DNA from: Rikenellaceae bacterium
Lineage (GTDB): Bacteria; Bacteroidota; Bacteroidia; Bacteroidales; Rikenellaceae
Assembly (NCBI GenBank): GCA_015059905.1
Contig: SUZN01000004.1
Location: 158,794 to 222,793, forward strand
Direction of reading: 5' to 3'
Length of the DNA: 64,000 nucleotides
Below the pieces are notes generated by a model, which saw only the letters and a list, made by a program, of their open reading frames with translations, was not told the origin of the DNA and searched no databases. Shown here in pieces: positions 37,887 to 59,964 of the stretch (position 1 is its first letter; every line of letters starts with the position of its first letter). The translations under genes and the position numbers were made by a program.

Positions 37887-37926
37887 AAGAGCCTTCCCTT
37901 AAGCAATTGAGTGGAGGCTCTTATTG
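37887..37926 (+). terminator. Hairpin upstream of the recombinase gene
   Basis: AAGAGCCT / AGGCTCTT perfect 8-bp stem with a 20-nt loop; the T-rich run after it is short. Confidence 0.55.
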
Positions 37927-37953
37927 TATCATCTTAAATCGTTTATCACGCTT

Positions 37954-39150
37954 ATGGCAACAATTAAAGTAAAACTACGCCCGTCATCAGTCGTAGGGCG
38001 TGCAGGAACTGTATATTATCAAGTGACTCATCGTAGAGCGACACAACAGATAACAACCAATATCCGATTGCAGCCTGACGAATGGGATGCAATAGGTGAA
38101 CAGGTTGTTGTAAGTGTTGCAGACAAGAGCATTATTCAGAATCGTATAGATAGTGATATTGCACTATTGAAACGAATTGTCAAAGACTTGGATAGTAGCG
38201 GAGTAACCTATTCGGTTGGAGATATTATCAAACGCTACAAGTCTCTGGAATGTTATGTGTCGGTTTTGGACTTTATGAAGAATCAAATACGGTTGATGCG
38301 TAATGCTAATCGCTTGGGTACAGCACAGAACTATGAGAAAACGATGAAGAACTTCGCCGAGTTTCTTGGCGGGGTCAATCTGCCATTTTCGGCAATGACA
38401 GAACAACTTGTTGCTGAATATAATGCCTTCCTTGTGCAGCGAGGGATGGTTAGGAACTCTATTTAATTCTATATGCGTATAATGCGAGCCGTTTACAACA
38501 AGGCAGTAAGGCAAAAACTTGTTGAATAATCTCACCCATTTATAGAGGTCTATACAGGCATTGATCGCACACGCAAGCGTGCTGTTTCAGAGTCTGTAAT
38601 ATCGCAGTTGTATAAACTGAAATTAACAGAAGATACTCCTCTTGCACTTGCAAGGGATATATTCATTTTCAGCTATTGTACCCGTGGAATGGCATTCGTA
38701 GATATTACCTATTTGAAGAAAGAAAACATTCAAAACGGGGTGATATGTTATGCCCGCCGCAAAACGGGACAATTATTGAGTGTGCGTATAGAGCCAAGTA
38801 TCCAGCGGATAATTGACAGATATTCATCGGCATTATCGCCTTATGTTTTCCCTATTTTGACTTCTACGGACACAAAGGAAGCATATGAAGAGTATCAAGT
38901 CGCAATCAACAACCATAATAGACAATTGAGACGATTATCAAAGATGTTGCCTGCCGGTTGCAAATTGACATCATACACCTCTCGCTACAGTTGGGCCACT
39001 GCTGCAAGAAACCACAATGTGCCAATTTCTGTCATCAGTGCAGGTATGGGGCATACCTCTGAGCAGACTACGCAGATTTATCTAACAATGTTGGAAAACT
39101 CGGTGATAGATGATGCCACTCAAGGACTTATTAGCTCATTATTGGAGTAG
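37954..39150 (+). pseudogene. Tyrosine site-specific recombinase interrupted by two TAA codons
   Basis: A 398-residue reading frame of a Bacteroidetes tyrosine recombinase. It has an N-terminal arm-binding domain (MATIKVKLRPSS), a SAM-like core-binding domain (SVLDFMKNQIRLM, NFAEFLGG) and a catalytic domain with CTRGMAFVDITYL (Arg I), SYTSRYSWATAA (Arg II region), MGHTSEQTTQIYL (His and Tyr nucleophile). TAA occurs at codon 171 (38464-38466, TCA plausible) and codon 192 (38527-38529, CAA plausible); the frame is otherwise complete. The 3' end overlaps the left copy of the invertible-segment repeat, so its natural job is probably inverting the adjacent promoter. Confidence 0.8.
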
Positions 39151-39167
39151 TTCCACAAAAGAACTAT
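39142..39167 (+). repeat. Left inverted repeat of the invertible promoter segment
   Basis: A 26-bp sequence beginning TTGGAGTAGTTCC, identical to the reverse complement of 39433-39458. It includes the last two codons and stop of the recombinase gene. Confidence 0.95.
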
Positions 39168-39432
39168 AAGCACCGTATAAGACTCTGAAATAAAACATCA
39201 TACAATATGAGATTCTGATACTTTTATAACATTTTCAATCATAGTAATCTGATTTATATAAAATTGCAAATCGAATAAACATAGGTATTTTGTTTCCTCT
39301 AATTGAAAATATTTATATAAATCGTTGAATATAAATCCATTCAAGGCAATCATTTAATTTCTTGTATAAGTAAAAATAATCGTCTATTTTTACCTATATT
39401 TAAACTATTTTTAGTATTTTTGCAATCGTGTG
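39168..39432 (+). promoter_or_regulatory. Invertible promoter segment (265 bp), drawn in ON orientation
   Basis: An AT-rich non-coding segment enclosed by perfect 26-bp inverted repeats. Near its right end TATTTTTG (39415-39422) matches the -7 consensus TAnnTTTG and points rightwards; the expected start is near 39429, just before the right repeat. The -33 region is weak. Inversion would turn this promoter towards the 3' end of the recombinase gene and switch the downstream operon off. The layout is that of phase-variable capsule promoters of Bacteroides, with a local tyrosine recombinase instead of a distant Mpi. Confidence 0.85.
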
Positions 39433-39458
39433 ATAGTTCTTTTGTGGAACTACTCCAA
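39433..39458 (-). repeat. Right inverted repeat of the invertible promoter segment
   Basis: Exact reverse complement of 39142-39167. It lies 17 bp before the antiterminator start codon, within the predicted mRNA leader. Confidence 0.95.
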
Positions 39459-39475
39459 AGAAAACTCTATTTGAA

Positions 39476-40048
39476 ATGAAAGTAGAGAGTGCGATTTGTC
39501 AGGTAAGTGATTCGTTTGTCAATGGGACAAACGACCGCGAAGCGTACCAAAAACGCTGGGTTGCGGCTCTTGTTCATACTAATTGTGAAAAGAAAGTTGC
39601 AGCTAAACTTGACAAGATGGGAATTGCAAATTATGTGCCAATTCAGCATGAGGAGCACCAATGGAGTGACCGAAAAAAGAAGATAGATCGGGTTGTTATT
39701 CCTATGGTTGTATTTGTTCGTCTTCCTCGAAATGAGGAAGATGAATTTCGCAAACTGTCATTCATCCTTAAATTCATCACCTATCCTGGTTCGAAAGAAT
39801 TGGCTACTCCAATACCTGATGAGCAAATAGAAAAGCTAAAGTTCTTATTGCATAATGCTGATGCTAAAGTCTCAATCGTCGAAAATCTTAAAGTTGGAAA
39901 TAGAGTTCGCCTTATTAGAGGTCCGATGAAAGGTCTTGAAGGAGAACTAAGTTATATTGAGGAGAATAAGCCTATTGTTGCCATCAGAATAGATGGATTG
40001 GGATATGCTTGTGTAAGTGTAGAAAAAAATAATTTGGAAATAATATGA
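39476..40048 (+). CDS. UpxY/NusG-family transcription antiterminator
   Basis: A 190-residue NusG paralogue. The NGN domain spans residues about 19-115 (WVAALVHTNCEKKVAAKL, GIANYVPIQHEEHQW, PMVVFVRL) and the KOW domain about 140-185 (VGNRVRLIRGPMKGLEGELSYI). UpxY proteins are encoded first in Bacteroides capsule operons and let RNA polymerase read through their own long operon. Here the gene is first after an invertible promoter and heads about 20 non-capsule genes. Its stop overlaps the next start (ATGA). Confidence 0.92.
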   Translation: MKVESAICQVSDSFVNGTNDREAYQKRWVAALVHTNCEKKVAAKLDKMGIANYVPIQHEEHQWSDRKKKIDRVVIPMVVFVRLPRNEEDEFRKLSFILKFITYPGSKELATPIPDEQIEKLKFLLHNADAKVSIVENLKVGNRVRLIRGPMKGLEGELSYIEENKPIVAIRIDGLGYACVSVEKNNLEII

Positions 40049-40566
40049 AGCTATTATTTGAGAAGATACAAAAGTTTATAGATTGGATAGCAATTCTAAT
40101 AGGTTCATTAGCATTAGTATCATCTATATTTGGTTACGGTTGCATATTTGGCATTAGAAGCGTTTGTCTTACTAAAATTGCAGGTATTATATGCATTGTT
40201 TATATTTTATATGCTGCATATCTTCTTATGCTAAGACCTAAATTTGATTGGCATTTAATTAATGGCTATTTTCTTAGAAAAGTAATATGCATCTCGATAT
40301 TGACACCTTGCCTACTAACAAGTGTTATTGGATGTCCGAATTTGTTGAGCGATGCTTCTATAAAAGATTCTACAGAATTAATCTTAGAAGATGAACTCTG
40401 CCAATCTATAATTGATAAAACAAAACTAAAAAATAAACAAACAGATCCGCCATTGTTGTGGAGTGTTTATTATCATTTTATTGACCCAGGAAACCAACAC
40501 ATGACCTCAACTAAATTTGGTCGAGGATGGGCTGGACTTATGGGCCTCAGCGTGATGATCAGTTAA
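40045..40566 (+). pseudogene. Membrane channel-like protein, 3' end fused out of frame to a RyR gene
   Basis: The 173-residue frame has three hydrophobic helices (about 13-35, 43-64, 80-99). A soluble part ends in DPPLLWSVYYHFIDPGNQHM, a motif I associate with bacterial ion-channel-like membrane proteins (moderate recall). Near 40533 the sequence becomes that of a RyR domain in another frame, so the last ~10 residues are unnatural and a C-terminal part is missing. A deletion that joined two genes explains this best. It is translationally coupled to the antiterminator gene. Confidence 0.55.
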
Positions 40567-40835: not shown

Positions 40836-40860
40836 TTTAAATACAAAAAATAGAAGAGAT

Positions 40861-41739
40861 ATGATTAAACCAGCAGAATTTATTCATCCAGAAGACGCAG
40901 CAGCATTGCGTCAGTTGGAAAGTATCCCAGGATTTCCTGCCCTTGTCAAGAAGATAATGGCACTGGGATTTGAACAATTGCGGTATGGTATGAATATGGC
41001 GACAGCAATTCGCCTTTCTCCTACTCAATTACCCAAACTTTACAATCACCTTCCTCCAATTTGTGAGAAGTTGGGTATTCCAGAGCCAGAGTTCTATTTG
41101 CAAATGGACCCTGTACCAAATGCGTGGACTTTTGGTGACACTAAAATCTTCATTACTATTACATCGGGATTGGTTGAATTACTCAATGATGAAGAGTTGG
41201 ATGCCGTAATTGCACACGAATGTGGTCATATTCTTTGTCGCCACGTACTGTATCACAGCATAGCTCAATATATTCTCAGTGGTGCAGATGCAATGGGAGT
41301 TTTAGGTTCGCTTACAGTTCCAATTCAGTACGCAATTTTGTATTGGTACAGAAAGAGTGAGTTATCTTGCGATAGATGTGGTAGTATCATAACCTCACCC
41401 GAGATTGTTGCTCGCTCGATGGCTCGCTTATCAGGTGGTCCGAAGTCTATAACAAGCAATTTGAACATGCAAGAATGGGCGCTGCAAGCCGATAAATACG
41501 AGAAGATAAAGAATGATGGCCTGTGGAACAAAGCATTGCAACTCTCTATCATAATCGGTCAATCCCATCCATTCAGTGCAGTTCGAGTTCGCGAAATCCT
41601 CAAATGGGGAGAAAGCCCGCAGTATAAGAATCTAATGCAGAATCTGAAAGCAGAAGCATCTGGCAAGAGATGTCCTAAATGCAATAAAGCTGTATGCGCT
41701 GATTGGGCTTATTGCAAGCATTGTGGTGCAAAACTATAA
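40861..41739 (+). CDS. M48-family metallopeptidase with C-terminal zinc ribbon
   Basis: A 292-residue protein with the zinc-protease motif HECGH (His119, Glu120, His123) in AVIAHECGHILCRH and a downstream conserved LSCDRCG where the third ligand is expected. The N-terminal part (DPVPNAWTFGD) is typical of M48. Residues about 271-290 form a zinc ribbon (CPKCNKAV...YCKHC). There is no signal peptide; the middle hydrophobic part may contact the membrane. In this operon it is one of three protease-like genes. Confidence 0.88.
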   Translation: MIKPAEFIHPEDAAALRQLESIPGFPALVKKIMALGFEQLRYGMNMATAIRLSPTQLPKLYNHLPPICEKLGIPEPEFYLQMDPVPNAWTFGDTKIFITITSGLVELLNDEELDAVIAHECGHILCRHVLYHSIAQYILSGADAMGVLGSLTVPIQYAILYWYRKSELSCDRCGSIITSPEIVARSMARLSGGPKSITSNLNMQEWALQADKYEKIKNDGLWNKALQLSIIIGQSHPFSAVRVREILKWGESPQYKNLMQNLKAEASGKRCPKCNKAVCADWAYCKHCGAKL

Positions 41740-41753
41740 TCAATACAAATGCT

Positions 41754-41975: not shown

Positions 41976-42011
41976 TACCATTTTATTCTATAATCATTAA
42001 ATCAAAAAGCT

Positions 42012-42269
42012 ATGTTTTTCAACGAAAAAGGAATCTTGAACATTGACGAAATGGTCGTCAACAATGCATCTTTCAAGACTATAATGGAAGATGGAGTAAT
42101 CACCGAAGAGGAGATTAAAGCTCAGTCTGACAAGGTTGTAGCAATGCTTCACGATATGGAGGCAAAATACAACGAAGAGCAACTTGCAGAGATTAAGAAT
42201 TTGCTTGTAGAGTCAAGCGTGTTGTACGCAGTGTACAATTTTCATTCAATTCAAAACATTAATAAATAA
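42012..42269 (+). CDS. Small acidic helical protein, unknown
   Basis: An 85-residue, mostly helical, acidic protein (MVVNNASFKTIMEDGVITEEEIKAQSDKV) without motifs I recognise. It is 36 bp behind the zinc-ribbon gene and 5 bp ahead of the next one, so it belongs to the operon. Confidence 0.6.
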   Translation: MFFNEKGILNIDEMVVNNASFKTIMEDGVITEEEIKAQSDKVVAMLHDMEAKYNEEQLAEIKNLLVESSVLYAVYNFHSIQNINK

Positions 42270-42274
42270 GAATT

Positions 42275-42781
42275 ATGGCAACTTTCAGCACTAAAAAGAT
42301 ATTATACGGTTCAACATCTTTGATACCTACTATTGCAAACCGTATACAGGAGGAGTTTCAGAACGATGGCTACGAAGTAGCTATGGACGCTTTGAGCAGC
42401 GGTGGTTACGACATTTCTATCACAAAGGGCGGCGTATTCAAGGCTGTATTGGGTATGAAAACCGCATTGAAAGTTACCTTGCTTCCTCAAGGCAGCAACA
42501 TCCACTTTGAAGCCGGTGTCGGTATTTGGGGACAGCAGGCAATTCCTACAGTTATTTCGATGCTTTTCTTCTGGCCTGTCCTCATTACTCAGATATGGGG
42601 CATGGTGGAACAGTCAAAGCTTGACGATAAGGCTTTGAACATTGCAAAGGATGTAGTTTATATGAATAACAATAATGGTGCAGGCGCTACTACTTCTAAT
42701 GGTAGCAAGTTCTGCACAGGATGTGGTACTCAGAATGTTGAATCTGCAAACTTCTGTTGCGGCTGTGGCAGACCTCTATAA
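42275..42781 (+). CDS. Zinc-ribbon protein with a hydrophobic segment, unknown
   Basis: A 168-residue protein. Residues 1-95 look like a small alpha/beta domain; one hydrophobic helix follows (AIPTVISMLFFWPVLITQIW), then a Gly/Asn/Thr-rich linker and a C-terminal zinc ribbon (FCTGCGTQN...FCCGCGRPL). It is probably anchored to the inner face of the membrane with the ribbon in the cytoplasm. No enzymatic motif is seen. Confidence 0.65.
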   Translation: MATFSTKKILYGSTSLIPTIANRIQEEFQNDGYEVAMDALSSGGYDISITKGGVFKAVLGMKTALKVTLLPQGSNIHFEAGVGIWGQQAIPTVISMLFFWPVLITQIWGMVEQSKLDDKALNIAKDVVYMNNNNGAGATTSNGSKFCTGCGTQNVESANFCCGCGRPL

Positions 42782-42783
42782 TT

Positions 42784-43752
42784 ATGGATAAAAAGAAATA
42801 TCTGAAAAATAGATTTAAGAGAGACTTCTTGCAGTATAGTTTGCTGCAGGAAGACTCTCTTCCTGCTAAAGAAATAGCAGAAAAGTTATATGGTGTAATT
42901 GATCTTAATTGGTTGATTGGTCAAGGTAAGCAAGAGATAGAGTCTCTTTGTAATAAGCATCTTTCATTCGAGAAAGTAAAAGTTGAGGGTAAGCTATCTA
43001 ATGAACTATCACAAGAGTTAGGTTATGACCTTAAAGATAAAATTATTGCTGAATACCAAAACTATTTGGATAGCCATTCAACAGATGAAATTACAACTGC
43101 CATTATCTCTAAAATAGAGAGAAGCGTAGAACTTCAAACTTGGAGTAATGGTATTGTGAATATGCAGGAAGCGATTAAACTACTTCTTGAAAGAGTGAAA
43201 AATTCATCAAGGAGTTATGGTAATCTCTACACTGCCCCTATTTCGGAAAATGATATACTTGAAAAGTTTAATAAAGCAAAGGAAAATACCCTGCTCGAAC
43301 GTATTCAAGGAAATAATATAGATGATATTATTGAGTATCGTAGTGCATTGATGGAGTATGTACGCGTGTCGTGCGAGAATATGCTCTATGCAAAACTTAA
43401 AGAAGTATATGCCAGCATTGCCATTGATGCCACTTTTGAGTGTTTACAATCAAACTTCAACGGTCTATCACAATATGCTCAAGAATTAAAATCATCAATC
43501 GCCGATTGCGAGACTAATGAGGAATGGGACAAGGAATACAATCGTCTTGTACCAACGGATTTCTACTACCGCAATGTAGAAAACATTACAGCAGAACACG
43601 CGTTCCATATGATTCTTCTTCAATTCTTTGCCAAGAATGAAGAATGGATGATAAAGAATGAATTGTTGGTGAATGGAGAATTAAATGTGTATATCAATCA
43701 AGACAATATAAGAGTACAAAATCTTTTGTCACAAATCGTAGAAAACATATAA
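42784..43752 (+). CDS. Large helical protein of unknown family
   Basis: A 322-residue soluble, mainly alpha-helical protein (SLLQEDSLPAKEIAEKLYGV near the start; EEWDKEYNRLVPTDFYYRNV late). I do not recognise a domain. The start at 42784 is chosen over an upstream in-frame Met because it follows the previous stop by 2 bp. Operon position suggests an accessory or adaptor role. Confidence 0.65.
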   Translation: MDKKKYLKNRFKRDFLQYSLLQEDSLPAKEIAEKLYGVIDLNWLIGQGKQEIESLCNKHLSFEKVKVEGKLSNELSQELGYDLKDKIIAEYQNYLDSHSTDEITTAIISKIERSVELQTWSNGIVNMQEAIKLLLERVKNSSRSYGNLYTAPISENDILEKFNKAKENTLLERIQGNNIDDIIEYRSALMEYVRVSCENMLYAKLKEVYASIAIDATFECLQSNFNGLSQYAQELKSSIADCETNEEWDKEYNRLVPTDFYYRNVENITAEHAFHMILLQFFAKNEEWMIKNELLVNGELNVYINQDNIRVQNLLSQIVENI

Positions 43753-43764
43753 AACTAAGATATC

Positions 43765-43839: not shown

Positions 43840-44364
43840 ATGGCAATCTTTATTAGTTATTCTACTATTGATCATAAGGAAACAGATATTGTATATAAAT
43901 CTCTTGATAACAATAATATTAAATGTTGGAAGGCTGATATTCAATTAAGAGAATATGGTGGAGAAGAATATGAAACGGAGATAGTAAAACAAATAGAACA
44001 ATGTGATGCATTTGTTGTCGTATATTCTCGCAATGCCATTGACTCTAGGTGGGTAAATGGCGAAATTACTTTAGCTTTCAATAGTAATAAAAGAATAATT
44101 ACATTTTTTATTGAAAACATTGATTTCGGTCAAAAGCATAAGTTGAAATTGCCCCAATTTCAATCAATTACAATAAAAGATGGATGGGATTTAGCTTTGA
44201 GCTCTTTATATAAATCTATAGTTAGAATTATTTCAGCAAATGTTGTTACATCAACAAACGATATTCCAAACGAGAAACATAAAGAAATCATGCCCTTGGA
44301 TCATAATCGAAGCAAAGGTTTTTTTAGTAAATTGTTTAATTATTTAACCAATAATATTCAATGA
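43840..44364 (+). CDS. TIR-domain protein
   Basis: A 174-residue protein that is almost entirely a TIR domain (residues 1-135). It begins MAIFISYSTIDHKE, has CWKADIQLREYGGEEYETEI in the BB-loop/helix region, and SRWVNGEITLAF with Glu75 at the position of the catalytic Glu of TIR NADases. The basic C-terminal tail (RSKGFFSKLFNYL) could be amphipathic and membrane-seeking. Bacterial TIR domains cleave NAD or make cyclic ADP-ribose-type signals in immunity. It overlaps the next gene by 4 bp. Confidence 0.85.
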   Translation: MAIFISYSTIDHKETDIVYKSLDNNNIKCWKADIQLREYGGEEYETEIVKQIEQCDAFVVVYSRNAIDSRWVNGEITLAFNSNKRIITFFIENIDFGQKHKLKLPQFQSITIKDGWDLALSSLYKSIVRIISANVVTSTNDIPNEKHKEIMPLDHNRSKGFFSKLFNYLTNNIQ

Positions 44365-45905
44365 GATTAACATATTTTTATTCTACAGAAATCGATGATT
44401 CGATTAAACTGAAAAATCAAATATTATCTCTACAAGTTTTGGATAATTTTGATGTAACACTCATTGATTCAAACTCTGATGACTTTTCTCAGTTAGAATT
44501 GTTAATTGCTTGTCATCGAGATGATATCGTAATCGTTGATTGTTCTATTCCTGACGATATTGCCGTAAAGACAGTTTATCCTATTCTTGTCGCACAAATT
44601 AATATGCTTGATCATGTGCTTGTTGTTAGTAAGACGATGCTTCCACTTAATATTACTCCCCAAAGACAAGGATATGATTCTCCGAGATTTAAACAGGATT
44701 TTTCAGACAAAAAACAATTATTATGGATTGAAGAACAAATCAAAGATCTACATCAAGCAATATCAAAAGGAACTCACTATAAAAGAATCCCATTAAAAGG
44801 ATATCAAGATCTTGAAAAATATCGTCTTGAAATGGAGTTAATGTGGGATAACTCTCATAAGTATAATCAAGCAAGAAATAGCGAAAAGAAAAAGGTCTTT
44901 ATAAGTTATCGAAGTAATTATTATGATGAAGTATTTAAATATAAAAAAGCATATGAAAAAAAGCATCCTGATACAATAGTCAGAATTGTAGAACCAGGTA
45001 TTTTGTGTTCTGGTGAAGAAACCTTATCTCCTATGAGAAAATGGATGCTTGTTTTTATGTTAGAAGCGAAAATACATGATATACAAGAGCTTATAATCTA
45101 TAGGACACCAGATTATACGGAATCATGGTGGACATGTGCAGAATTGGTAATGGTCGCATATAATAATTGGGGAAGAACTGAAGAAAATAAAATAAAAATA
45201 AAATATTACGTTCCCGAGGCCGAGGAGCAAGAAGAGGTAAACATAGACAATCTATTGATGCCATATAATTTAGATAAACAGCAAAAAAACAGGCTTGATC
45301 GTTTGGCCGCTAATACACGTCCAGACACGATGGGACCTGAATGTATGAATAATATTGAGCAAATGCGTTCAATTTGTGAATCTATAAATAATTCCAATTT
45401 TATCGTTAGCACTTTGTTGAAATGGAGTATTAAGCGTATGCTTAAAAAATCCATTCCGGCATCTTTACCAGCTCAAGAAAAAAAAGAGATGTTAAGAAAA
45501 ACGATGAAGCTATACACAAATCCACAATCTTTGGATACTTATCTTGCTGATGATGTTTTTAAGGATAGTTTTTGGAATAGACTTTCATATCAAATAGAAT
45601 GGACAACACCCGCATTTATATTTGATGAAAACAAAATGAAATATACAATTGATATAGATACATTCCTTAATGCACCAATGCAAGAAATAATTCCGTTCAC
45701 AGAACAAGAACTGAAACGGAAAGTTGAGCAGAAGGAAACAATAAAGGTATATAATAAAGATAATCACGAGTGTGAATTATCGGTAACCTTATGTCCAACG
45801 AAAAGGTATATTTGGCTAGCTACAAGAATGGGGCAGCCTACGATAAAAGATGCTCCGGGTTTGGAAATAATTCAGACATATAATATAGAAAAAGTAGAAT
45901 CATAA
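44361..45905 (+). CDS. TIR-like-domain protein with N-terminal and C-terminal regions of unknown family
   Basis: A 514-residue cytoplasmic protein. Residues 1-135 form an alpha/beta domain (LTYFYSTEIDDSIKLKNQ, DDIVIVDCSIPDD) resembling the receiver-like N-terminal domain of some TIR and nucleotide-sensing proteins. Residues about 178-275 are TIR-like: KKKVFISYRSNYYDE, then SWWTCAELVMVAYNNWG with Glu261 in the conserved place. The remainder is helical with a small C-terminal beta region. It is coupled to the preceding TIR gene (ATGA), suggesting they work together. Confidence 0.7.
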   Translation: MRLTYFYSTEIDDSIKLKNQILSLQVLDNFDVTLIDSNSDDFSQLELLIACHRDDIVIVDCSIPDDIAVKTVYPILVAQINMLDHVLVVSKTMLPLNITPQRQGYDSPRFKQDFSDKKQLLWIEEQIKDLHQAISKGTHYKRIPLKGYQDLEKYRLEMELMWDNSHKYNQARNSEKKKVFISYRSNYYDEVFKYKKAYEKKHPDTIVRIVEPGILCSGEETLSPMRKWMLVFMLEAKIHDIQELIIYRTPDYTESWWTCAELVMVAYNNWGRTEENKIKIKYYVPEAEEQEEVNIDNLLMPYNLDKQQKNRLDRLAANTRPDTMGPECMNNIEQMRSICESINNSNFIVSTLLKWSIKRMLKKSIPASLPAQEKKEMLRKTMKLYTNPQSLDTYLADDVFKDSFWNRLSYQIEWTTPAFIFDENKMKYTIDIDTFLNAPMQEIIPFTEQELKRKVEQKETIKVYNKDNHECELSVTLCPTKRYIWLATRMGQPTIKDAPGLEIIQTYNIEKVES

Positions 45906-45916: not shown

Positions 45917-47221
45917 ATGAACCATGATGTTTTTATAAGTTATTCAAGTCAAAACAAAGAGGCTGCACAAGCTATTTGCCACACCCTTGAACAGAATGAA
46001 ATAAAGTGCTGGATGGCTCCAAGAGATATCCCACCTGGCTCTGAATATGGAGATTTAATTGATGAAGCTATTAAAAAAGCCTCAGTCGTCGTTGTCCTAT
46101 TTTCAGAAACTGCAGCTACATCTTTATGGGTAAAAGGAGAATTGAATATTGCATTTGAAGAACAGAAAGTCATAATTCCATTCCGCTTAGATAAAACACC
46201 TTTAAAAGGACAGAATCGTGTAATACTAAATCAGAAGCATTGGATAGATGCTTACCCTGACTATAAAACAAAATTTAATGATTTACTGTGCGCTGTAGCT
46301 CAATCAATAGGTAAAAGTATTGATAAGGACACGAAGAATACAGTTGAAATTAAAAAAGATTACAAAAAACACATATTGGGTGGAATAATAACTGCAATCA
46401 TATTAGTCTTAATAGCCATACTTTATCCAAAATTTAAAAGTTCAACTCATACTTATGTATATGACAATAATGGGCTTCATGTAAATACAACAAAAATATC
46501 ACCATCTCAAAGTGAAGCTTTGACATCGATACTAGATAAAATGGTTCTTGTAGAAGGTGGTGATTTTGTTATGGGTAATAATTATAAAGATATTGACTGT
46601 TTGACGGAACAAGATAGCTTAAGTAAAAATCCTCATAATGTAAGTCTAAGTAATTTTTATATAAGTAAATATGAGTTAACGCAGAAAGAATGGGAAGCAT
46701 TCTTCTCTATTGAAGGAAAATGCATAGAATATGGCGAAAATAAAGCGATAGATATGTTATCGTGGGAGGATGCACAGATATACTGCGACACATTATCTTC
46801 TATTACTGGTTTAGATATTTCTTTACCAACTGAGGCGCAATGGGAATATGCCGCCCGTGGAGGAAAAAAGAGCAAAGGACATATTTTCTCTGGGCATACA
46901 TTTGATATTAGAGAAGTAGCTTGGACTTCGTATGATGAGTTGACATCTGGGCACGAAATTGGTGGCAAAAGAGTTAATGAATTAGGACTATATGATATGA
47001 CAGGTAATGTTAGTGAGTGGTGTAAAGATTATTATGCAGAATATGACTCCGTATCTGTAATTAATCCCAATGGACCCCAAACTGGCATTTATAAAGTAAT
47101 ACGAGGAGGCGATTTTAGAATTCAAAACTATTATGATATGAAAACCACAACTAGATATTATGCTTCTCCTTTTGTAAATAGAAAAGCGACTGGTTTGAGA
47201 TTAGTAATCAATATAAAATAA
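45917..47221 (+). CDS. TIR - transmembrane - FGE-like (C-type-lectin fold) receptor-like protein
   Basis: A 434-residue protein. Residues 1-130 are a TIR domain (HDVFISYSSQNKE, CWMAPRDIPPGSEYG, SLWVKGELNIAF with Glu75). One transmembrane helix lies at about 152-171 with a basic cytoplasmic flank (KKDYKKH), so TIR is inside and the rest outside. Residues about 209-434 are an FGE-sulfatase/C-type-lectin-like domain (VEGGDFVMG, LPTEAQWEYAARGG, ELGLYDMTGNVSEWC, IRGGDF, GLRLVI). The cysteines used by formylglycine-generating enzymes are absent after RGGD, so it probably binds a ligand. Confidence 0.88.
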   Translation: MNHDVFISYSSQNKEAAQAICHTLEQNEIKCWMAPRDIPPGSEYGDLIDEAIKKASVVVVLFSETAATSLWVKGELNIAFEEQKVIIPFRLDKTPLKGQNRVILNQKHWIDAYPDYKTKFNDLLCAVAQSIGKSIDKDTKNTVEIKKDYKKHILGGIITAIILVLIAILYPKFKSSTHTYVYDNNGLHVNTTKISPSQSEALTSILDKMVLVEGGDFVMGNNYKDIDCLTEQDSLSKNPHNVSLSNFYISKYELTQKEWEAFFSIEGKCIEYGENKAIDMLSWEDAQIYCDTLSSITGLDISLPTEAQWEYAARGGKKSKGHIFSGHTFDIREVAWTSYDELTSGHEIGGKRVNELGLYDMTGNVSEWCKDYYAEYDSVSVINPNGPQTGIYKVIRGGDFRIQNYYDMKTTTRYYASPFVNRKATGLRLVINIK

Positions 47222-47226: not shown

Positions 47227-47826
47227 ATGCATAAATCTATTATAATATCCATTCTTGTTTTAGTTTTTTCACCTTGTTTTGCACAGGAACAAACAAGTGA
47301 TAAAGAGAAACGACATCGTCTTTTTATTGAAGATTTTATTCAAGAGTATCAATCTGCGTACGAAAAAGAAAAGATTGAGTATATCTCAAATTTTTTCAGT
47401 TCAGATGCGTTGATTATTACCGAAACTAAGCAACTAAGTAGATGTGGCGAAGAACTAGTTCCTCTTTCAACGAAAAAAAGACCATATAAATTAATAGTAG
47501 AAGATAAAATTCAGTATATAAAAAGACTTTCTGAGTTATTTGATCAAAACATCAAAATAAAATTAGGTATATCTGGTTTACGTATAGTTCAACATTCATT
47601 ATATCCTGAAATATTTGGGGTTTCGTTCTTACAGATGTGGTTAGATGATCAAAATGGGAACAATCTTGAAAGCCAAATGCCTGGATATATTTTCTTAATG
47701 ATAGACTTTAAACAGAATGATTTAACTCCTATTATTCATGTTCGTACTTGGCAACCGAAAGACAATATAAGTTCTCCAAAAGATAAATTTAATTTAATAG
47801 ATTTCAGAATATATGACTTTAAGTAA
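47227..47826 (+). CDS. Exported protein, possibly NTF2-like
   Basis: A 199-residue protein with a signal peptide (ISILVLVFSPCFAQ) and a compact alpha+beta domain. The pattern EDFIQEYQSAYEKEKIEYISNFFSSDALIITETK followed by a later YIKRLSELFDQN resembles NTF2/SnoaL-like folds, but this is a guess from shape. It overlaps the next gene by 14 bp. Confidence 0.6.
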   Translation: MHKSIIISILVLVFSPCFAQEQTSDKEKRHRLFIEDFIQEYQSAYEKEKIEYISNFFSSDALIITETKQLSRCGEELVPLSTKKRPYKLIVEDKIQYIKRLSELFDQNIKIKLGISGLRIVQHSLYPEIFGVSFLQMWLDDQNGNNLESQMPGYIFLMIDFKQNDLTPIIHVRTWQPKDNISSPKDKFNLIDFRIYDFK

Positions 47827-48712
47827 TAAAATATTTTTAATTGGACTGTTCCTTGTTCTTGCGACAAATGTTAGTGCTCAAAATTTAAAAGTTACACTAA
47901 GTCCAGATGAAAGGAAAGTTAATAGAAATGCAAAAAATGGAGTATCAACTATTGTGTTTGATTCGAAAGTTAAAGGCCTGGTTATTGATAATGGTACTGA
48001 TGATCAGTGGATGAAGCCTTCCGATAATATGTATGTGTATTTAATTGATACTCAAAGAGATTTGACACGTGGATATGAACAATCTCGAAGAATTTTTATT
48101 CTTAATAGTCCTAAATCATCAGAATACATTCTTGAGATAGATGAAATTACACCTAAGCAATTTCTATATTATACTATTGTATTGCCAGAACAATATCCAA
48201 ATAGTTTATCATGTGAATATATATTCTCAAAGACAACAATGCATGGGATTAGAGTATCATACGGTAAACGTTTTGGCTTTTTTTTATCCTATAAGTGGGG
48301 AGAGTATAAAAAGCAAGGCTGTGATATATCTACCGTCACACAAGATTACGATATAACCCGAGCAAATAAATTAGGTTATATAAGAACTGCTATAACTGGA
48401 GGTCTTCGTCTAGGAGTTATGCATAAAGATCTTGCAAGTCTATATGTATTGATTGGTGGAGGATATGGCGAATATGGGCGTCAGTGGGAGAATCCATTGA
48501 AGATAAATAACAACACTCTATTTTACAGTGATTATATTAAAGGATTTGAAGGAGAAATTGCATGTCAATGTATTTTATATGATTGGTTGAGTGTTTCACT
48601 AGGAACAAGCATGGTTGTAGGAAACGGAAATATATCAGTAGACTACCAAGTTGGTGTAGGATTGAATTTGAATTTTGACAAAATTTTAAAGAAAAAAATG
48701 AATCTACAATGA
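47813..48712 (+). CDS. Exported protein with C-terminal outer-membrane barrel
   Basis: A 299-residue protein with a signal peptide (FLIGLFLVLATNVSAQ), an N-terminal beta-sandwich-like region (residues 25-140) and a C-terminal half of alternating amphipathic strands (GIRVSYGKRFGFFLSYKWG, ASLYVLIGGGYGEYG, LSVSLGTSMVVG, VGVGLNLNF). It is likely a small outer-membrane barrel with a periplasmic domain. The final stop overlaps the next start by 4 bp. It would place one system component in the outer membrane. Confidence 0.65.
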   Translation: MTLSNKIFLIGLFLVLATNVSAQNLKVTLSPDERKVNRNAKNGVSTIVFDSKVKGLVIDNGTDDQWMKPSDNMYVYLIDTQRDLTRGYEQSRRIFILNSPKSSEYILEIDEITPKQFLYYTIVLPEQYPNSLSCEYIFSKTTMHGIRVSYGKRFGFFLSYKWGEYKKQGCDISTVTQDYDITRANKLGYIRTAITGGLRLGVMHKDLASLYVLIGGGYGEYGRQWENPLKINNNTLFYSDYIKGFEGEIACQCILYDWLSVSLGTSMVVGNGNISVDYQVGVGLNLNFDKILKKKMNLQ

Positions 48713-49827
48713 AAAATTTATTAGTTGGTATAGTGTCTTCAATTGTTTTGTTGTTATCAGGATGTTCATATGAAGAGTTTTGTCCGAACGATTGGGCAGT
48801 TGATCCAATACTGGAATTATCTGAAAGTGGATTAATTTTTAATGCCGCTATTAATCAAGATACGGTAAAGATATCCACGAACTATCAAACGTTTGATGTT
48901 ACATGTCAAGACTCGTGGTGTACAATTACACCTAATCAAAAGGACTCAACTATTATTGTTTCTGTTGACCCGAATATGAAAGCAGAACAGCGTCGCACAA
49001 CTATCTATGTAAATGTAGGTCGAGGTGAAAAGAATTTGACCAAAACATTATCAGTAGTTCAAATGGGTGGTTATTGGGATGTCGTTGACCAATTTTCTAT
49101 CTATTGGAGTTCTGATGTGACTATAACACAAAAGGAAACAATTGCAGAAATCCTTTCAAAAATGGTTTATGTTAAAGGCGGTATGTTTGTTATGGGAACG
49201 GAGTTTGATTATACATCAAACATCATGGATACTCGCCATAATGTAACTCTCTCCGATTTCTATATAAACAAAACGGAAGTCACACAAAAGCAGTGGAATG
49301 TTATAATGGGTAGTAATCAATCTAATTTTAAGGGGGAACAATTGCCCATTGAAAATATCGAATGGGAGGACGCCCTTGATTTTGTAACAAAATTGTCAAG
49401 ATTAACAAATCTTAATTTCACATTGCCAACAGAAGCAGAATGGGAATATGCCGCCCGTGGAGGAATTTATTCGATGGGGTATACATATCCTGGTAGTAAT
49501 GATTATGAAGATGTGTTGATTGACAAAGGATATGAAAATCTATCAGATCCTAATTTTACAACATATGCTGTGGGTCAACTATGGCCAAATGAATTGGGAT
49601 TATATGATATGGCTGGAAATGTTGCGGAGATGTGTTCGGATTGGTATGGAGAATACGATTTATCGAATCAAGTAAATCCTATGGGACCTGCGATTGGTGA
49701 ATATCATGTTATAAGAGGAGGAGATATGCAATCAACATCTTTCCTACTTTGGCCAGTATATTCAAGATTCCCATTTATTACTAAGACCGGAAATTATATT
49801 GGAATAAGATTATGTATAAGACCATAA
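48709..49827 (+). CDS. Lipoprotein with BACON and FGE-like domains
   Basis: A 372-residue lipoprotein (SIVLLLSGCSYEE). Residues about 30-120 are a BACON-type beta-sandwich (LELSESGLIFNAA, SWCTITPNQ, TLSVVQMGG), common in Bacteroidetes surface glycan-binding proteins. The FGE/C-type-lectin-like domain spans about 160-372 (VKGGMFVMGTEF, LPTEAEWEYAARGG, ELGLYDMAGNVAEMC, IRGGDM, GIRLCI). The formylglycine-synthase cysteine pair is absent. The acidic residues after the lipid Cys suggest surface export. It overlaps the next gene by 16 bp. Confidence 0.85.
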   Translation: MKNLLVGIVSSIVLLLSGCSYEEFCPNDWAVDPILELSESGLIFNAAINQDTVKISTNYQTFDVTCQDSWCTITPNQKDSTIIVSVDPNMKAEQRRTTIYVNVGRGEKNLTKTLSVVQMGGYWDVVDQFSIYWSSDVTITQKETIAEILSKMVYVKGGMFVMGTEFDYTSNIMDTRHNVTLSDFYINKTEVTQKQWNVIMGSNQSNFKGEQLPIENIEWEDALDFVTKLSRLTNLNFTLPTEAEWEYAARGGIYSMGYTYPGSNDYEDVLIDKGYENLSDPNFTTYAVGQLWPNELGLYDMAGNVAEMCSDWYGEYDLSNQVNPMGPAIGEYHVIRGGDMQSTSFLLWPVYSRFPFITKTGNYIGIRLCIRP

Positions 49828-50684
49828 TTAGTCACCTTGTTTTACTATCAGTTCTCTATCTGATGACTTCCTGCACAAAATCAATAGATGAAATACCATC
49901 CGATGTTGAGATTGTAAATGGATTTAATGTTGAATGGAGAAAGAATGTTTCGGATAGCAAAAAAAATGTAATTCGAGAAATCCTTAATGATATGATTTAT
50001 GTCAGAGGTGGCCTGTTTTTAATGGGAGCAACACAAAACCAAGAGGCTTACGCTAGACATAATGAAAAACCGGCACACTATGTTCAGATTTCGGATTATT
50101 ATATAGGGAAAAAGGAACTTACAATAGAACAAATAGAGATATTGCTGAATACAGAATTTAGTTCCTTTGAAAAAAAACAAGGTAGTCCTGATTTTATTTG
50201 GAATGATTGGGCTTATGTAATGGGGGTTATAGAAGAGTGTTCAAATGTTAAGGTTGATTTTCCAACTGAAGCACAATGGGAATATGCCGCAAAAGGAGGT
50301 ATATACAGCAAAGGATATATTTATCCAGGAGGAAACACTATTGAAGATGCCAAACAATACGCAAATGAGTTAGGATTAGTGGATTTGGTCAAAGGACATA
50401 GCGAATGGTGTAAAGATGCATATAATGAATATTCAAATTCCCCACTTGTAGAAGACCCTTACTACATTCAGGGATTAGGTCATATTGTGCGAGGAGGTAA
50501 TATTAAATCAATTTCTGAGCAAAAAGATTATTTAAAAACCTTCTCTACTGGTAACAAATTTAGCTCCTGTTATGACGATTTCAGAGTTTGTAGAGTATCA
50601 GCACGGTCATATTGTGATGATAGTCAGTCTTACTTAAATACATATATATCGTGTCGATTAGTAATTAATATTAATAAGGAATAA
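49812..50684 (+). CDS. Lipoprotein with a divergent FGE-like domain
   Basis: A 290-residue lipoprotein (LMTSCTKSIDE). The FGE/C-type-lectin-like domain from about residue 65 keeps VRGGLFLMGA, FPTEAQWEYAAKGG, NELGLVDLVKGHSEWC and VRGGN, but the core is shortened and less conserved than in its neighbours. The short helix before the domain (NVIREILNDMIYV) matches the same position in the 45917, 48709 and 57821 genes, so these four domains share a recent common origin. Confidence 0.8.
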   Translation: MYKTIISHLVLLSVLYLMTSCTKSIDEIPSDVEIVNGFNVEWRKNVSDSKKNVIREILNDMIYVRGGLFLMGATQNQEAYARHNEKPAHYVQISDYYIGKKELTIEQIEILLNTEFSSFEKKQGSPDFIWNDWAYVMGVIEECSNVKVDFPTEAQWEYAAKGGIYSKGYIYPGGNTIEDAKQYANELGLVDLVKGHSEWCKDAYNEYSNSPLVEDPYYIQGLGHIVRGGNIKSISEQKDYLKTFSTGNKFSSCYDDFRVCRVSARSYCDDSQSYLNTYISCRLVININKE

Positions 50685-50688: not shown

Positions 50689-52263
50689 ATGAGAACAGTT
50701 TTATCTTTTGCATTAATATGTGTATTGTTTATATCCTCATGTTCTAAAGAGGATAATCCATTTGGAGAAAATGAGAAACAGTCCAGAGAGTTAATAGTTT
50801 CAGGAAGTTTATCGGAATACATTACGGAAGAAAACATTTTTGAAATTACAAAACTAACAATTAATAGTGTTATTTCTGGAGAAGACTGGAATATCTTATT
50901 TGAGATGGCGGTATTGGGTAATCTTGAAATTCTTGATATGTCAAATGCTCATATTAAAGGAGTTGAGGGTATAGACTGTTGGAATGATGACGAAATTCCA
51001 GAATACAATTTTAGCGAAAGTAAAAAGCTCAAGGAGGTCTTTTTGCCTAAGAATATCAGGGTTATTGGCACAGAAGCATTTTCCAAATGCCGTAAACTTA
51101 CGAAAGTGCATTTCCCTGAACGAATTGATAGTATTGCCCCTCGTGCATTTTATCAATCAGGATTATCAGGCGAATTCAATGTTCCTAAATATTTAGGTGT
51201 AGTAGGCAAACAGGCATTTGGTAGCACAAAAATTAATAAGGTAATAATTCAGTCAGATGTTCTCGCCGCAAAAGATGATACTATGTATATGCTATATGGC
51301 AATAGTGTATTTGCCGATTGTCGGGATTTGAATGAAGTCATTGTTAAGGAAGGGTGTACGATGTTGGAACTAGGTTTTTCTCATTGTACCTCGTTAACGA
51401 AAGTATCTTTACCTGGTACATTGGAACAGATTGGATATATGTCCGGATATACGTCTAATTACATATTTAGCGGATGTGAGAATTTGAAAACAATAACATT
51501 GCCTGAGAATTTGAAGTTTATTGGATATAATGCCTTTTCAAATACATCATTAAGTTCCATAGATATTCCCGATAAAGTGCAATATATATGGACTTATGCC
51601 TTCCAGAACTGCGAATTGTTAGAAAAAGTAATTTTACCCTCTGCTCTTATTAAGATAAGTCATGGGGGGTTTGAAGGTTGCAAGATGCTTGACAATATCA
51701 CAATTCCCGAAAAAGTGTCAGAAATTGGATATTCTGCATTTGGGGATTGTACTTCACTTCAATCACTTTCATTTGAGGGTAATGTATCATTAATTGGTAA
51801 AGAGGCTTTTATTAATTGTACTTCTCTAAACACTGTCATTCTACCTGATGGCGTTGAATCCTTAGGCTCATCTGCTTTTGAAGGTTGTAGTTCTCTTTCC
51901 AAAGTAGTAATGTCTAAAAAACTAAAAGAAATTGAAGCCACAACCTTTAAAAATTGCGTGGAATTACAAGATGTGACTTTGGGAGAATCAATAGAAACAA
52001 TTGGCAGTAGCAGTTTCCTCCATTGCCCTAAATTAACAAAACTTCTAATACCAATTACAGTAAAGAATATTGAGAATTATGCGTTTTCTTATACTGGAAT
52101 TAAAAACCTAACTGTTATGTGGGCATCACCTATCGTAATAAACAATAATATATTTGATGGAATAAATTTATCTAAGTCAACACTAAATGTCCCTCTGGGT
52201 ACAAAAGAGTTGTATAAAACATCTTCAGGTTGGCAAAATTTCGGAACAATAGAGGAATTCTAA
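50689..52263 (+). CDS. BspA-type leucine-rich-repeat lipoprotein
   Basis: A 524-residue lipoprotein (CVLFISSCSKEDN; the acidic residues after Cys suggest surface display). From about residue 100 to 500 it is an array of BspA/TpLRR repeats of about 23 residues, such as IGTEAFSKCRKLTKVHFPE and IGKEAFINCTSLNTVILPD. Such proteins mediate protein or cell-surface binding. Within this operon it is the only LRR protein and may be the ligand-recognition or adhesion component. Confidence 0.9.
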   Translation: MRTVLSFALICVLFISSCSKEDNPFGENEKQSRELIVSGSLSEYITEENIFEITKLTINSVISGEDWNILFEMAVLGNLEILDMSNAHIKGVEGIDCWNDDEIPEYNFSESKKLKEVFLPKNIRVIGTEAFSKCRKLTKVHFPERIDSIAPRAFYQSGLSGEFNVPKYLGVVGKQAFGSTKINKVIIQSDVLAAKDDTMYMLYGNSVFADCRDLNEVIVKEGCTMLELGFSHCTSLTKVSLPGTLEQIGYMSGYTSNYIFSGCENLKTITLPENLKFIGYNAFSNTSLSSIDIPDKVQYIWTYAFQNCELLEKVILPSALIKISHGGFEGCKMLDNITIPEKVSEIGYSAFGDCTSLQSLSFEGNVSLIGKEAFINCTSLNTVILPDGVESLGSSAFEGCSSLSKVVMSKKLKEIEATTFKNCVELQDVTLGESIETIGSSSFLHCPKLTKLLIPITVKNIENYAFSYTGIKNLTVMWASPIVINNNIFDGINLSKSTLNVPLGTKELYKTSSGWQNFGTIEEF

Positions 52264-52284: not shown

Positions 52285-54189
52285 ATGAGGAGGTTCCCAA
52301 TATACATCTTAATTAACACATCCTTTGCAATCTGTAATAAAACCTTGCGAAATTTCAATGACTGTATAAAATTACTAATTGAAACTTTACAAGAAGATCC
52401 GCATGCTTTAGAAACCGCACATATAAGTATTATGACTTTTGATAGTACAATTACTAAGTTGTGCTCATTGTCTCCATTGTCATCATTTAAAATACCACCT
52501 ATTAAACTCGGTACAAAAGAATCCTCGCTCGAACAAACATTTTTACAATTATCTCCAATTATTGATGATGAACTCATTAAAACCACTAGTGAAAAAAAAG
52601 GCGATTGGAAACCATTGGTATTTATTTTCTCAGATAATGATTCCGTAATTAATATTACAAGAGAAGAGGCTGAATCAATTTATCATAAATGTGGACGAAT
52701 TGTTGTTTGTACTAACAAAGATTCTATTAATGGGGAAAACTACAAGAATATCACCGAAACAATATTATCAATAGAGTCTCTTGATAAACTCACAATTAAG
52801 TCCCTGTTTCGTTGGGTGTCTGAAAGTATTGATGCTGGTGATAAAGTTGATTGCTATGAACTAGAGCTAGAACTACCGCCTCCACCTCCTTCCGTCTATA
52901 TTGATATAGAATCAAATTATTTGGAACGAAAATTCACCTATGAGTCCGTTTGTCAATTTACAATTTTGCCCGATAATAAAAGGTTGAAGAAGTTAAAAAA
53001 CGAATATGAAAAGACTATCTCATCTTTAAATCAAGAACAAAAACGATTAAAATCTGTTCATTTCCAAATTGACGCGCTAAAAAAGAAGAAAAATAAAATA
53101 GAATCACAAAAGGATAAACCATCCGAACCCAAGGGAGCTGTCGGAGCTGGAGCAGTTCTTTTCGGGCCCTTAATGGCGACATTGGGAGGAATAGCTGGAG
53201 CTGGATTTTTTACCAGTTCTACAATCAAACCCTCTAATGATGCAAGTGAAATAGATCAAGAAATCCTTTTAGAATGTGAAAAAGAATTAGAAGCAAAGCT
53301 GGCTCAAGCACAAATGTGCAAAAAGCAGATAGAAGAGTTTAAACAACAGAAAAGTAATCTTGAAAAAGAACTTGCAGTTTTAGAGGAGCAAAACAAATAT
53401 AATGAAGTATATTCTTCTATATTTGCACCAGCAGAGGTAAAACGAAAATCACATTTGCAAGTACAAGTGTATCTGCATTTGTATGAGGAGTCTGAAAAAG
53501 TTAAATCGCTCGCTCAAGAGTCTGATAAAAATGCAGTGAGACGTGATTATATACCTTTATTGCTTAAGTTGAGAAAAGGTGATAAGGTTGATGTCGAGTT
53601 TAATGTTTACGCTGAAACTCGTCTTATGTCTGAACGCAAATCTATAATATGGCAAGGTTCTTTTACAAAATGTTCATTCGATTACTTTATCCCCAAAGAC
53701 ATCGATGTGGAGGAACTGAGTTGTGAAGTCAATTTATTCGTCAATGGAGCTATGATTGGAGAAATGAGATTCTTAACTCAAATAGTTGAAACACCACGTA
53801 ACCTTAATCCCGAAATTCTATCTCATCGCTTCAATAGGATTTTCATCTCATACGCTCACCAAGATGCTCAACAAATAAAACTATTGGCATTAGCTTATAA
53901 AGCGCAGGGGGTGGACTATTTTTATGATAGAGATAGCCTTGCTCCTGGGGACGTGTATGAGGAAAAAATTTTCGACTATATTGATTCGTCAGATCTATTT
54001 GTTTTATGCTGGTCTAAAAATGCGGCAGTAAGTAATTATGTCGCAAAAGAAAAAGATCGAGCGTTGCTCAGAGCATATCCGCAACTCAGTCAAAGAGATG
54101 CCACGATTAAAATCTGTCCTATCAGCATTGAGCCTCGTGCTGACCTACCAAGCGACATGAAAGAAGTCTATAATTTTGAAGTGATATAA
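52285..54189 (+). CDS. vWA - coiled coil - glycine zipper - TIR protein
   Basis: A 634-residue protein. Residues 1-190 resemble the TerY-type vWA domain (RRFPIYILINTS, EKKGDWKPLVFIFSD), but the MIDAS motif DxSxS reads NTSFA, so metal binding is probably lost. Coiled coils follow at about 230-275 and 325-375, separated by a glycine-zipper hydrophobic segment at about 284-309. The C-terminal TIR domain (518-634) starts RIFISYAHQDAQQ and has SNYVAKEKDRAL with Glu589. In other systems vWA-TIR combinations act as scaffolds with an effector end; here the TIR is C-terminal. Confidence 0.82.
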   Translation: MRRFPIYILINTSFAICNKTLRNFNDCIKLLIETLQEDPHALETAHISIMTFDSTITKLCSLSPLSSFKIPPIKLGTKESSLEQTFLQLSPIIDDELIKTTSEKKGDWKPLVFIFSDNDSVINITREEAESIYHKCGRIVVCTNKDSINGENYKNITETILSIESLDKLTIKSLFRWVSESIDAGDKVDCYELELELPPPPPSVYIDIESNYLERKFTYESVCQFTILPDNKRLKKLKNEYEKTISSLNQEQKRLKSVHFQIDALKKKKNKIESQKDKPSEPKGAVGAGAVLFGPLMATLGGIAGAGFFTSSTIKPSNDASEIDQEILLECEKELEAKLAQAQMCKKQIEEFKQQKSNLEKELAVLEEQNKYNEVYSSIFAPAEVKRKSHLQVQVYLHLYEESEKVKSLAQESDKNAVRRDYIPLLLKLRKGDKVDVEFNVYAETRLMSERKSIIWQGSFTKCSFDYFIPKDIDVEELSCEVNLFVNGAMIGEMRFLTQIVETPRNLNPEILSHRFNRIFISYAHQDAQQIKLLALAYKAQGVDYFYDRDSLAPGDVYEEKIFDYIDSSDLFVLCWSKNAAVSNYVAKEKDRALLRAYPQLSQRDATIKICPISIEPRADLPSDMKEVYNFEVI

Positions 54190-57091: not shown

Positions 57092-57799
57092 ATGGGAAAC
57101 TATTTGATTCCACTAACCGCATTACTTCCTATAGCCATCCTTGTGTATTACATATATCACAAGGATGAGAAATCCCCAGAGCCAACAGGGCAATTGGTTA
57201 AAGCATTCCTATTTGGCATTTTATCGGTACCGGTATCATTTTGTCTGTCAATACCATTTGGAATAATTGGACTATATCCTATTGAGGTGACAAGTATATT
57301 AGGAAGCATTAGTACTGCGTTCTTTGGAGCTGCGATACCAGAAGAAATCGCAAAATTCATTATGTTGTGGCTGTTGTTACGAAAGAACCCTTACTTTGAT
57401 GAGAAAATGGATGGTATTGTCTATGCAGTCTGCGTATCCCTCGGCTTTGCAGCATTAGAGAATATAATGTATCTCTTCTCCAATGAAGAGGCATACTTAT
57501 CAGTAGGCATTGCACGTGCAATCTTCGCAGTGCCTGGACATTTCTGTTTCGGCATTCTGATGGGATATTATTATTCATTGGCAAAATTCTATCCCAAGAC
57601 ACCTACAAAGAATAAAGCTCTTATATTAGTTGCGCCTATCATCGTTCATGGACTCTACGATTCCATATTATTCATAATCAATGTGACTCCAGCCATAAGT
57701 GGCATCCTATTGATTGTATTCTTGGTCTTTTGCCACAAAATGTGGAAATATGGAAGTAAAAGCATACAAGAGCACATGAAAAGAGATATAGAAGTCTAA
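57092..57799 (+). CDS. PrsW-family intramembrane metalloprotease
   Basis: A 235-residue polytopic membrane protein with the four PrsW/CAAX-like motifs: PEEIAK (Glu84-Glu85), GFAALENIMY (Glu123), VPGHFCFG (His150) and HGLYDS near the C-terminus. PrsW-type enzymes cleave membrane-anchored substrates in or near the bilayer. Next to TIR-TM-FGE proteins, one of those could be its substrate, but this is inference. Confidence 0.88.
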   Translation: MGNYLIPLTALLPIAILVYYIYHKDEKSPEPTGQLVKAFLFGILSVPVSFCLSIPFGIIGLYPIEVTSILGSISTAFFGAAIPEEIAKFIMLWLLLRKNPYFDEKMDGIVYAVCVSLGFAALENIMYLFSNEEAYLSVGIARAIFAVPGHFCFGILMGYYYSLAKFYPKTPTKNKALILVAPIIVHGLYDSILFIINVTPAISGILLIVFLVFCHKMWKYGSKSIQEHMKRDIEV

Positions 57800-59948: not shown

Positions 59949-59964
59949 AATATATATCAATCAT

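Follow-up and report, generated by a model that had tools for sequence, protein, structure and literature searches.

A predicted Bacteroidales-type invertible promoter, probably stuck ON beside a broken recombinase gene, before an UpxY gene and a TIR/FGE operon in a Rikenellaceae genome

In gut Bacteroidales, phase variation has been described mainly for surface molecules. Invertible promoters linked to upxY genes are standard for capsules (PMC12118408, PMC13114119, PMC12632263), and in capsule operons UpxY is described as suppressing termination (PMC12118408, PMC13114119). The published consensus of the -7 element is TANNTTTGY (PMC8748976, PMC12632263). Invertible promoters have also been described in Bacteroidales before resistance genes in former glycan loci, an arrangement named IP-ARG (PMC8748976). 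In the PS locus of P. vulgatus CL10 the adjacent recombinase is defective by internal stops, and inversion of the promoter was detected by PCR (PMC13114119).

The window analysed here is a stretch of 64,000 nucleotides from contig SUZN01000004.1 of a Rikenellaceae bacterium (assembly GCA_015059905.1); loci in other genomes are cited by number (L027 and so on). Judged from its sequence, the 317-bp region 39142-39458 is very likely a Bacteroidales-type invertible promoter. It stands before an UpxY gene and 20 further genes, all of which would form one operon of ~23 kb, and it is probably stuck ON, the neighbouring recombinase gene, which likely flipped it, being broken. We read the locus as a known switch design that would have been recruited to immune-like cargo. 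The parts of the switch are as follows:

37954..39150, plus strand, tyrosine recombinase gene of the switch (Phage_int_SAM_5, Arm-DNA-bind_5, Phage_integrase)
39142..39167, plus strand, left arm, 26 bp, with core GTTC-N7-GAAC; contains the recombinase stop codon 39148-39150
39168..39432, no strand, 265-bp inter-arm segment, predicted to invert; current orientation ON
39415..39422, plus strand, predicted Bacteroides-type -7 box TATTTTTG(C), 10 bp from the right arm
39433..39458, minus strand, right arm, 26 bp, exact reverse complement of the left arm

The first-pass annotation had described perfect 26-bp inverted repeats around 265 bp, with the recombinase stop codon inside the left one, and the arms are indeed complementary at 26 of 26 positions, enclose 265 nt and hold that codon. 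At a spacing of 60-900, exact inverted repeats elsewhere in the window reach 12 at most, and 40 order-1 Markov windows gave longest repeats of 11-16; the 26-bp arm repeat is far beyond chance. With its two half-sites and 7-bp centre, GTTC-N7-GAAC has the form expected for the core site of a tyrosine recombinase. The rightward box TATTTTTGC, correctly said to be aimed at UpxY, fits the -7 consensus TANNTTTGY, the promoter call being a consensus match. We infer a transcription start near 39429, which would leave a leader of only ~47 nt before upxY. A search of the bacterium's own genome with the 19-base arm core, at up to three mismatches, returned both arms and one 3-mismatch match in the CHAT gene; the latter was considered as a sister switch site and judged to be chance. 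A degenerate two-arm pattern with a gap of 200-230 gave no match, because the real inner gap exceeds this range, and viral contigs gave two weak partial matches. Left of the recombinase gene, at 35803-37031, lie a gene for a NikA/MobC-type mobilisation protein (plus strand) and a piece of a DDE transposase gene (minus strand), hinting at a mobile-element border.

The orientation of the segment was compared with that in L027, a metagenome-assembled genome from roe-deer rectum with an UpxY 89% identical to that of the window and an intact recombinase of 397 aa (79%). The L027 segment is also 265 bp long; its alignment to the window segment extends over ~210 bp and requires that one of the two be inverted (score 98 inverted vs 25 direct; best of 100 shuffles 40). 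Because these orthologous segments align only in inverted form, an inversion has occurred between the window and L027 lineages. Among 12 arm-bounded segments (66 pairs), 8 pairs could be oriented, five as opposite and three as the same, and all 8 agreed with the direction of the promoter, which itself lies within the aligned sequence of such pairs. None of 39 further pairs with L116, L090 and L019 could be oriented, which brings the total to 8 of 105. L069 and L070 likewise scored higher when inverted (65 vs 23; best of 100 shuffles 32); since their match covers only 55 bp around the promoter, the window and L027 form the one strong case.

The first-pass annotation had also proposed looking for the same repeat-flanked segment before homologous operons in other Bacteroidales, and comparable segments were found. 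Each of the 15 loci for which an arm pair was accepted has an outward -7 box at 3-13 bp from one of its arms, whereas resampled segments with an outward box at most 45 bp from an arm amounted to a mean of 1.3 loci and a maximum of 5. The promoter points ON in four of these loci (window, L069, L072, L073) and OFF in 11, among them L019 (G174), where no recombinase ORF was recognised by BLAST. Extra TAnnTTTG boxes that go against the outward rule occur in L027, L069, L070 and L080, and one extra box of L070 reaches into the right arm and points ON. In 12 loci compared for exact 15-bp GTTC-N7-GAAC cores, eight have at least two, identical within the locus and in five versions across the eight; L067 and L069 have one, and L026 and L068 none. 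Outside the 15-locus count, with no accepted arm pair, stand L067, L026, L068, L025 (contig starts too near), L118-L121, L071, L086, L079, L081-L084, L009, L012 and L018, together with L117, in which the 15-bp inverted repeat consists of the promoter box; the arm scan did not extend to the distant-UpxY loci L091-L101 and L105.

Some loci have other layouts. L070, L074 and L075 carry two direct copies of the left arm ~84-88 bp apart together with an inverted copy on the right, and nested inversions or deletions would be possible with such a layout; for these three the outer left arm was used. In L117 (G538:C8, oriented 2600-3250) a leftward TAGTATCTTTG box recurs in each of five repeats spaced ~76 bp, and two rightward boxes precede upxY; this is a promoter array rather than a two-arm switch.

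These comparisons bear on a reading in which the repeats are an insertion scar or some other structure that never inverted, and the box is a fixed promoter. The mobilisation and transposase genes just to the left would suit such a scar, and inversion within the species was not observed. Against it stand the opposite orientation of the L027 segment, the outward box near one arm in every locus with arms, cores that match within loci and vary between them, and a recombinase at the same place in relatives. An integration scar or a chance repeat was rejected on the L027 inversion together with the arm statistics, and a never-inverted structure of any kind is extremely improbable.

The recombinase gene of the window carries two in-frame TAA stops (38464-38466 and 38527-38529), absent from the first-pass annotation. 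The open pieces of the gene are 37924-38466 and 38608-39150. In the second piece the catalytic-domain motifs are still recognisable, with one position that departs from the residue shared by all 8 intact relatives aligned. Intact copies were found in other genomes, where relatives of 48-86% identity precede comparable segments or operons. Where L027 and L072 agree, the codon changes on the window branch are 27 silent, 2 amino-acid and 1 stop over 397 codons, compared with 56/36/0 and 65/19/0 on the two comparison branches; the other window stop was not counted, as its codon differs between L027 and L072. This substitution pattern indicates that the recombinase gene was conserved under constraint until recently, and that its loss is recent.

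The own genome is a draft of 11 contigs and 2.25 Mb (92% complete); for this reason a further recombinase may be missing from it, and the stops could be sequence errors. In the latter case the switch would work normally in cis, which would agree with the perfect arms and with the ratio of 2 amino-acid to 27 silent changes, unusual for a dead gene. However, the two stops and the motif change at a residue fixed in 8 relatives would call for several errors in one gene, whereas the 21 operon ORFs read open apart from a shortened second gene, g2. Draft errors are thus a highly unlikely explanation.

A second possibility is that a recombinase encoded elsewhere flips the segment in trans, so that the TIR/FGE operon is phase-variable today. 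The arms are still 26/26 identical, the genome holds six other tyrosine recombinase (PF00589) genes, and P. vulgatus offers a precedent for inversion, seen by PCR, next to a defective recombinase (PMC13114119). Yet no one of the six resembles the switch recombinase closely: the best-scoring one has 24.6% identity over 402 residues to the intact L027 protein, three have no match to it at E<=1e-3, and short local matches of the genome's other recombinases reach up to 31%. The 92%-complete genome yielded no close paralogue. In the flanks fetched for the six loci, an exact inverted repeat of at least 13 bp occurs at L031 only, a G+C-rich 14-mer unlike the switch arms, and the arm core lacks a second convincing genomic site. 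A switch that is still live is rather unlikely on these grounds, and it keeps the weight that we give it because the CL10 promoter inverts beside its defective recombinase; for the same reason a broken neighbour is no proof of a frozen switch (PMC13114119). Still, the two stops in the recombinase gene, together with the failure to find a close paralogue, make it probable that the switch is frozen ON. Of the first-pass annotation, an invertible promoter before an UpxY-led non-capsule operon is well supported by the inverted L027 segment, by the arm cores and by the cargo, in which no capsule family was detected; present-day phase variation in this genome is not supported, the adjacent recombinase being broken and a close paralogue not having been found.

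Damaged switch parts were also seen in two other near-clade loci. L067 (G081) has a recombinase without residues 59-147 and unequal arms, and points ON. L026 retains the leader and a slightly changed right arm, also pointing ON; neither a left arm nor a recombinase was found beside that arm. Five near-clade loci combine an arm pair with no noted damage: L069 is ON, and L027, L070, L090 and L116 are OFF. The gene adjoining the L116 arms was not recognised as a switch recombinase, and L090 matches the switch recombinase at 41% in a stretch that starts inside the gene. ON is the orientation of 3/3 damaged loci (window, L067, L026) vs 1/5 near-clade loci that have arms and no noted damage. This suggests repeated freezing in ON, in numbers that are small and too few to prove selection.

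Behind the switch, 21 main ORFs follow on one strand from 39476 to 62727 (scanned at E<=1e-3, with a 90-aa ORF at 41703-41975 left out):

39476..40048, plus strand, UpxY-family transcription antiterminator gene (NF033644, 136.5 bits, cut-off 100)
40045..40566, plus strand, g2, no Pfam or NCBIfam match; apparent 5' remnant of a gene for an 840-935-aa protein
40861..41739, plus strand, M48 peptidase (Pfam)
42012..43752, plus strand, three genes (85, 168 and 331 aa), no family over the cut-off
43840..44364, plus strand, TIR protein (Pfam), ThsB-like in weak PADLOC matches
44361..45905, plus strand, 514-aa protein, no match in family, PADLOC or solved-structure searches
45917..47221, plus strand, TIR-FGE protein (Pfam)
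47227..48712, plus strand, two proteins of no family, signal-peptide-like N-termini (by eye)
48709..50684, plus strand, BACON-FGE and FGE proteins (Pfam), lipobox-like N-termini (by eye)
50689..52263, plus strand, BspA-type leucine-rich-repeat protein (Pfam), lipobox-like N-terminus (by eye)
52285..54189, plus strand, protein with C-terminal TIR domain (Pfam)
54199..55779, plus strand, TIR-FGE protein (Pfam)
55772..57076, plus strand, 434-aa protein, no match in Pfam, NCBIfam or PADLOC searches
57092..57799, plus strand, PrsW-family intramembrane protease (Pfam)
57821..59290, plus strand, TIR-FGE protein (Pfam)
59301..59948, plus strand, protein of no family, signal-peptide-like N-terminus (by eye)
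59938..62727, plus strand, TPR-CHAT protein (Pfam), last of the run, signal-peptide-like N-terminus (by eye)

The UpxY-type antiterminator named by the first-pass annotation is confirmed by the family match. Its list of about 20 TIR, FGE, CHAT, LRR and RyR genes holds for the first four types (TIR and FGE 5 each; LRR, M48, PrsW and CHAT 1 each), while no RyR domain was found in the window operon at E<=1e-3. Its statement that no capsule gene is present also stands, in that none of the 21 ORFs matched a glycosyltransferase or polysaccharide family at that threshold. Three of the five TIR proteins are fused to FGE, and the longest direct repeats, D1-D3, fall in FGE genes (61-86% identity). The set of TIR-FGE, lipoprotein-like FGE and LRR, and CHAT proteins suggests a system spanning envelope and cytosol, and with these immune-like parts the operon may have a putative anti-phage role. 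In the 21 ORFs neither an NTPase core (STAND or MoxR) nor a reverse transcriptase family was detected, and no ThsA-type match was obtained (21 ORFs by Pfam, 10 by PADLOC); because of these three absences the operon is not filed under a named defence system. No solved structure matched for two window proteins. Terminator-like sites at 39400-59300 number 8 vs 8.4 in shuffles, which leaves intrinsic terminators unsupported as targets of UpxY. The contig ends at window position 64000, ~1.3 kb behind the CHAT gene.

The second gene is not a recognisable UpxZ: g2 lacks a Pfam or NCBIfam match and resembles a truncated remnant. Its match is confined to residues 1-205 of the proteins encoded after UpxY in L025, L026 and L067, and no trace of the remainder was found in 39001-64000. 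With only this 5' remnant left, a replacement of cargo seems to have taken place directly behind upxY, with g2 as a possible junction. The M48 peptidase, g5 and g6 are 99, 98 and 91% identical to their L067 counterparts and UpxY is 86% identical; as the three exceed UpxY in identity, this is a sign of recent gene exchange.

The UpxY itself may offer a way to find further operons of this kind. Of 180 genomes of the genus, 31 match the switch DNA and 84 have an UpxY-like match (both at E<=1e-3); only 5 of the latter, the window's included, reach 59% identity. Matches were obtained in 12 of 268 genomes of the family at E<=1e-20 and in 8 of 393 genomes of an even draw from the order at E<=1e-30 (own genome counted in both), and no second UpxY was found in the own genome at E<=1e-3. 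At E<=1e-20 a protein search returned 1057 UpxY-like proteins, of which the best 120 were listed, without gene context. In a tree of 42 UpxYs the window's falls among 12 in one group (support 96/90), from genomes with four family codes (f1, f22, f26, f80). These 12 had been picked for the similarity of their UpxYs, at a stage when their cargo was not yet known.

No capsule family was found in the cargo of this group among the proteins scanned. L067 has RyR, TIR-LRR, SIR2-TIR and nSTAND1 proteins, L026 RyR and a transglutaminase-kinase, L027 a DUF4062-TPR protein, L069 three HSP70s, L068 FtsK-GYF and JAB proteins, and L070 an M48 pair (by BLAST). L116 has DUF4407, PP2C and a weak dynamin-like match below the cut-off, L117 FHA-trypsin and a kinase, L118 AAA-trypsin, and L025 a g2-like gene and one ORF without assignment before the contig ends. 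A type VI secretion system (T6SS: TssC, Hcp, baseplate, Tle1-like) belongs to L090, an assignment made from a pooled scan by protein size and elimination. L090 (G235:C32, oriented 918-1107) has 27-bp inverted repeats (mismatches allowed), an OFF box and an UpxY of the group, and its T6SS operon is possibly phase-variable. That pooled scan, of 41 proteins from 8 loci, gave no polysaccharide family among the 25 families listed of 62. The design is not a one-off, a group of related UpxYs heading such operons.

The distant UpxYs head mostly polysaccharide operons. Polysaccharide and glycosyltransferase families lead in their pooled scan (82 proteins, 14 loci), which covers the cargo of 13 of the 30 tree rows outside the group. 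L072-L075, L077 and L080 have the recombinase family and mostly the same arm type, without a close UpxY; one pooled scan of 25 proteins gave kinase, FHA, dynamin and also polysaccharide families and a second, again of 25, gave M48, GTPase and fimbrillin, with families known by pool and not by locus. As this cargo is mixed, the recombinase family is not limited to immune-like cargo. For L119 and L120, one test gene from each was without a matching solved structure, which leaves their cargo unassigned; the test gene of L071 is a UDP-galactopyranose mutase relative.

In the mechanism that we propose, the recombinase would have bound to the GTTC-N7-GAAC core of each arm and inverted the DNA enclosed by the arms. 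In the ON orientation RNA polymerase would transcribe through the right arm into upxY, and UpxY would keep it running through the ~23-kb operon; the OFF orientation would silence the operon. Relatives with intact parts could then keep a costly immune-like or envelope-guarding system ON in one subpopulation and OFF in another, and the recent loss of the recombinase in the window genome would have turned the switch into a constitutive promoter. More tentatively, and with somewhat less than even confidence, we suggest that a dedicated UpxY clade, accompanied in several members by a recombinase and by arms of the GTTC-N7-GAAC or a related type, serves as a portable ON/OFF cassette for immunity and antagonism across Bacteroidales families, and that under lasting threat the switch is broken ON, so that bet-hedged immunity becomes permanent. 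Should the same switch control immune-like and T6SS operons, these populations would bet-hedge immunity itself, and a single genome per species would be a misleading guide to which cells are protected. The UpxY group would then be a sequence handle for finding such operons, and recent recombinase loss a natural test of when permanent expression pays.

In the searched literature, outside which most subscription papers fall, no report of an upxY-type invertible promoter before a TIR/FGE or T6SS operon was recognised, and the locus is best placed beside the systems that share some of its parts. The window TIR proteins, with their weak ThsB-like matches, recall Thoeris, unlike which no ThsA was found in the operon. 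The co-occurrence of TIR, CHAT, FGE and peptidase domains is shared with the TIR/STAND/FGE (CLec) conflict systems and their DGR-diversified forms (PMC7159879, PMC8195603, PMC10907252). Unlike these, the window operon yielded neither an NTPase core nor a reverse transcriptase, nSTAND1 being present in the related L067; NusG and phase variation go unmentioned in the two eLife papers among the three.

The promoter resembles those of capsule loci (B. xylanisolvens and B. thetaiotaomicron CPS, P. vulgatus CL10 PS) in its adjacent recombinase, palindrome-bearing arms, -7 box between the arms and upxY as first gene of a long operon (PMC13114119, PMC12118408), and as in P. vulgatus CL10 the adjacent recombinase is defective (PMC13114119). 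It differs from them in the arm core, GTTC-N7-GAAC as opposed to the GTTAC-GTAAC type (PMC12118408), in an operon without capsule family or recognised UpxZ, and in an UpxY that groups apart from the sampled polysaccharide-type UpxYs. With IP-ARG the window has in common the same switch, often with upxY first, recruited to non-capsule cargo (PMC8748976); unlike IP-ARG, that cargo is immune-like, with a T6SS in a relative, and stands behind a distinct UpxY group.
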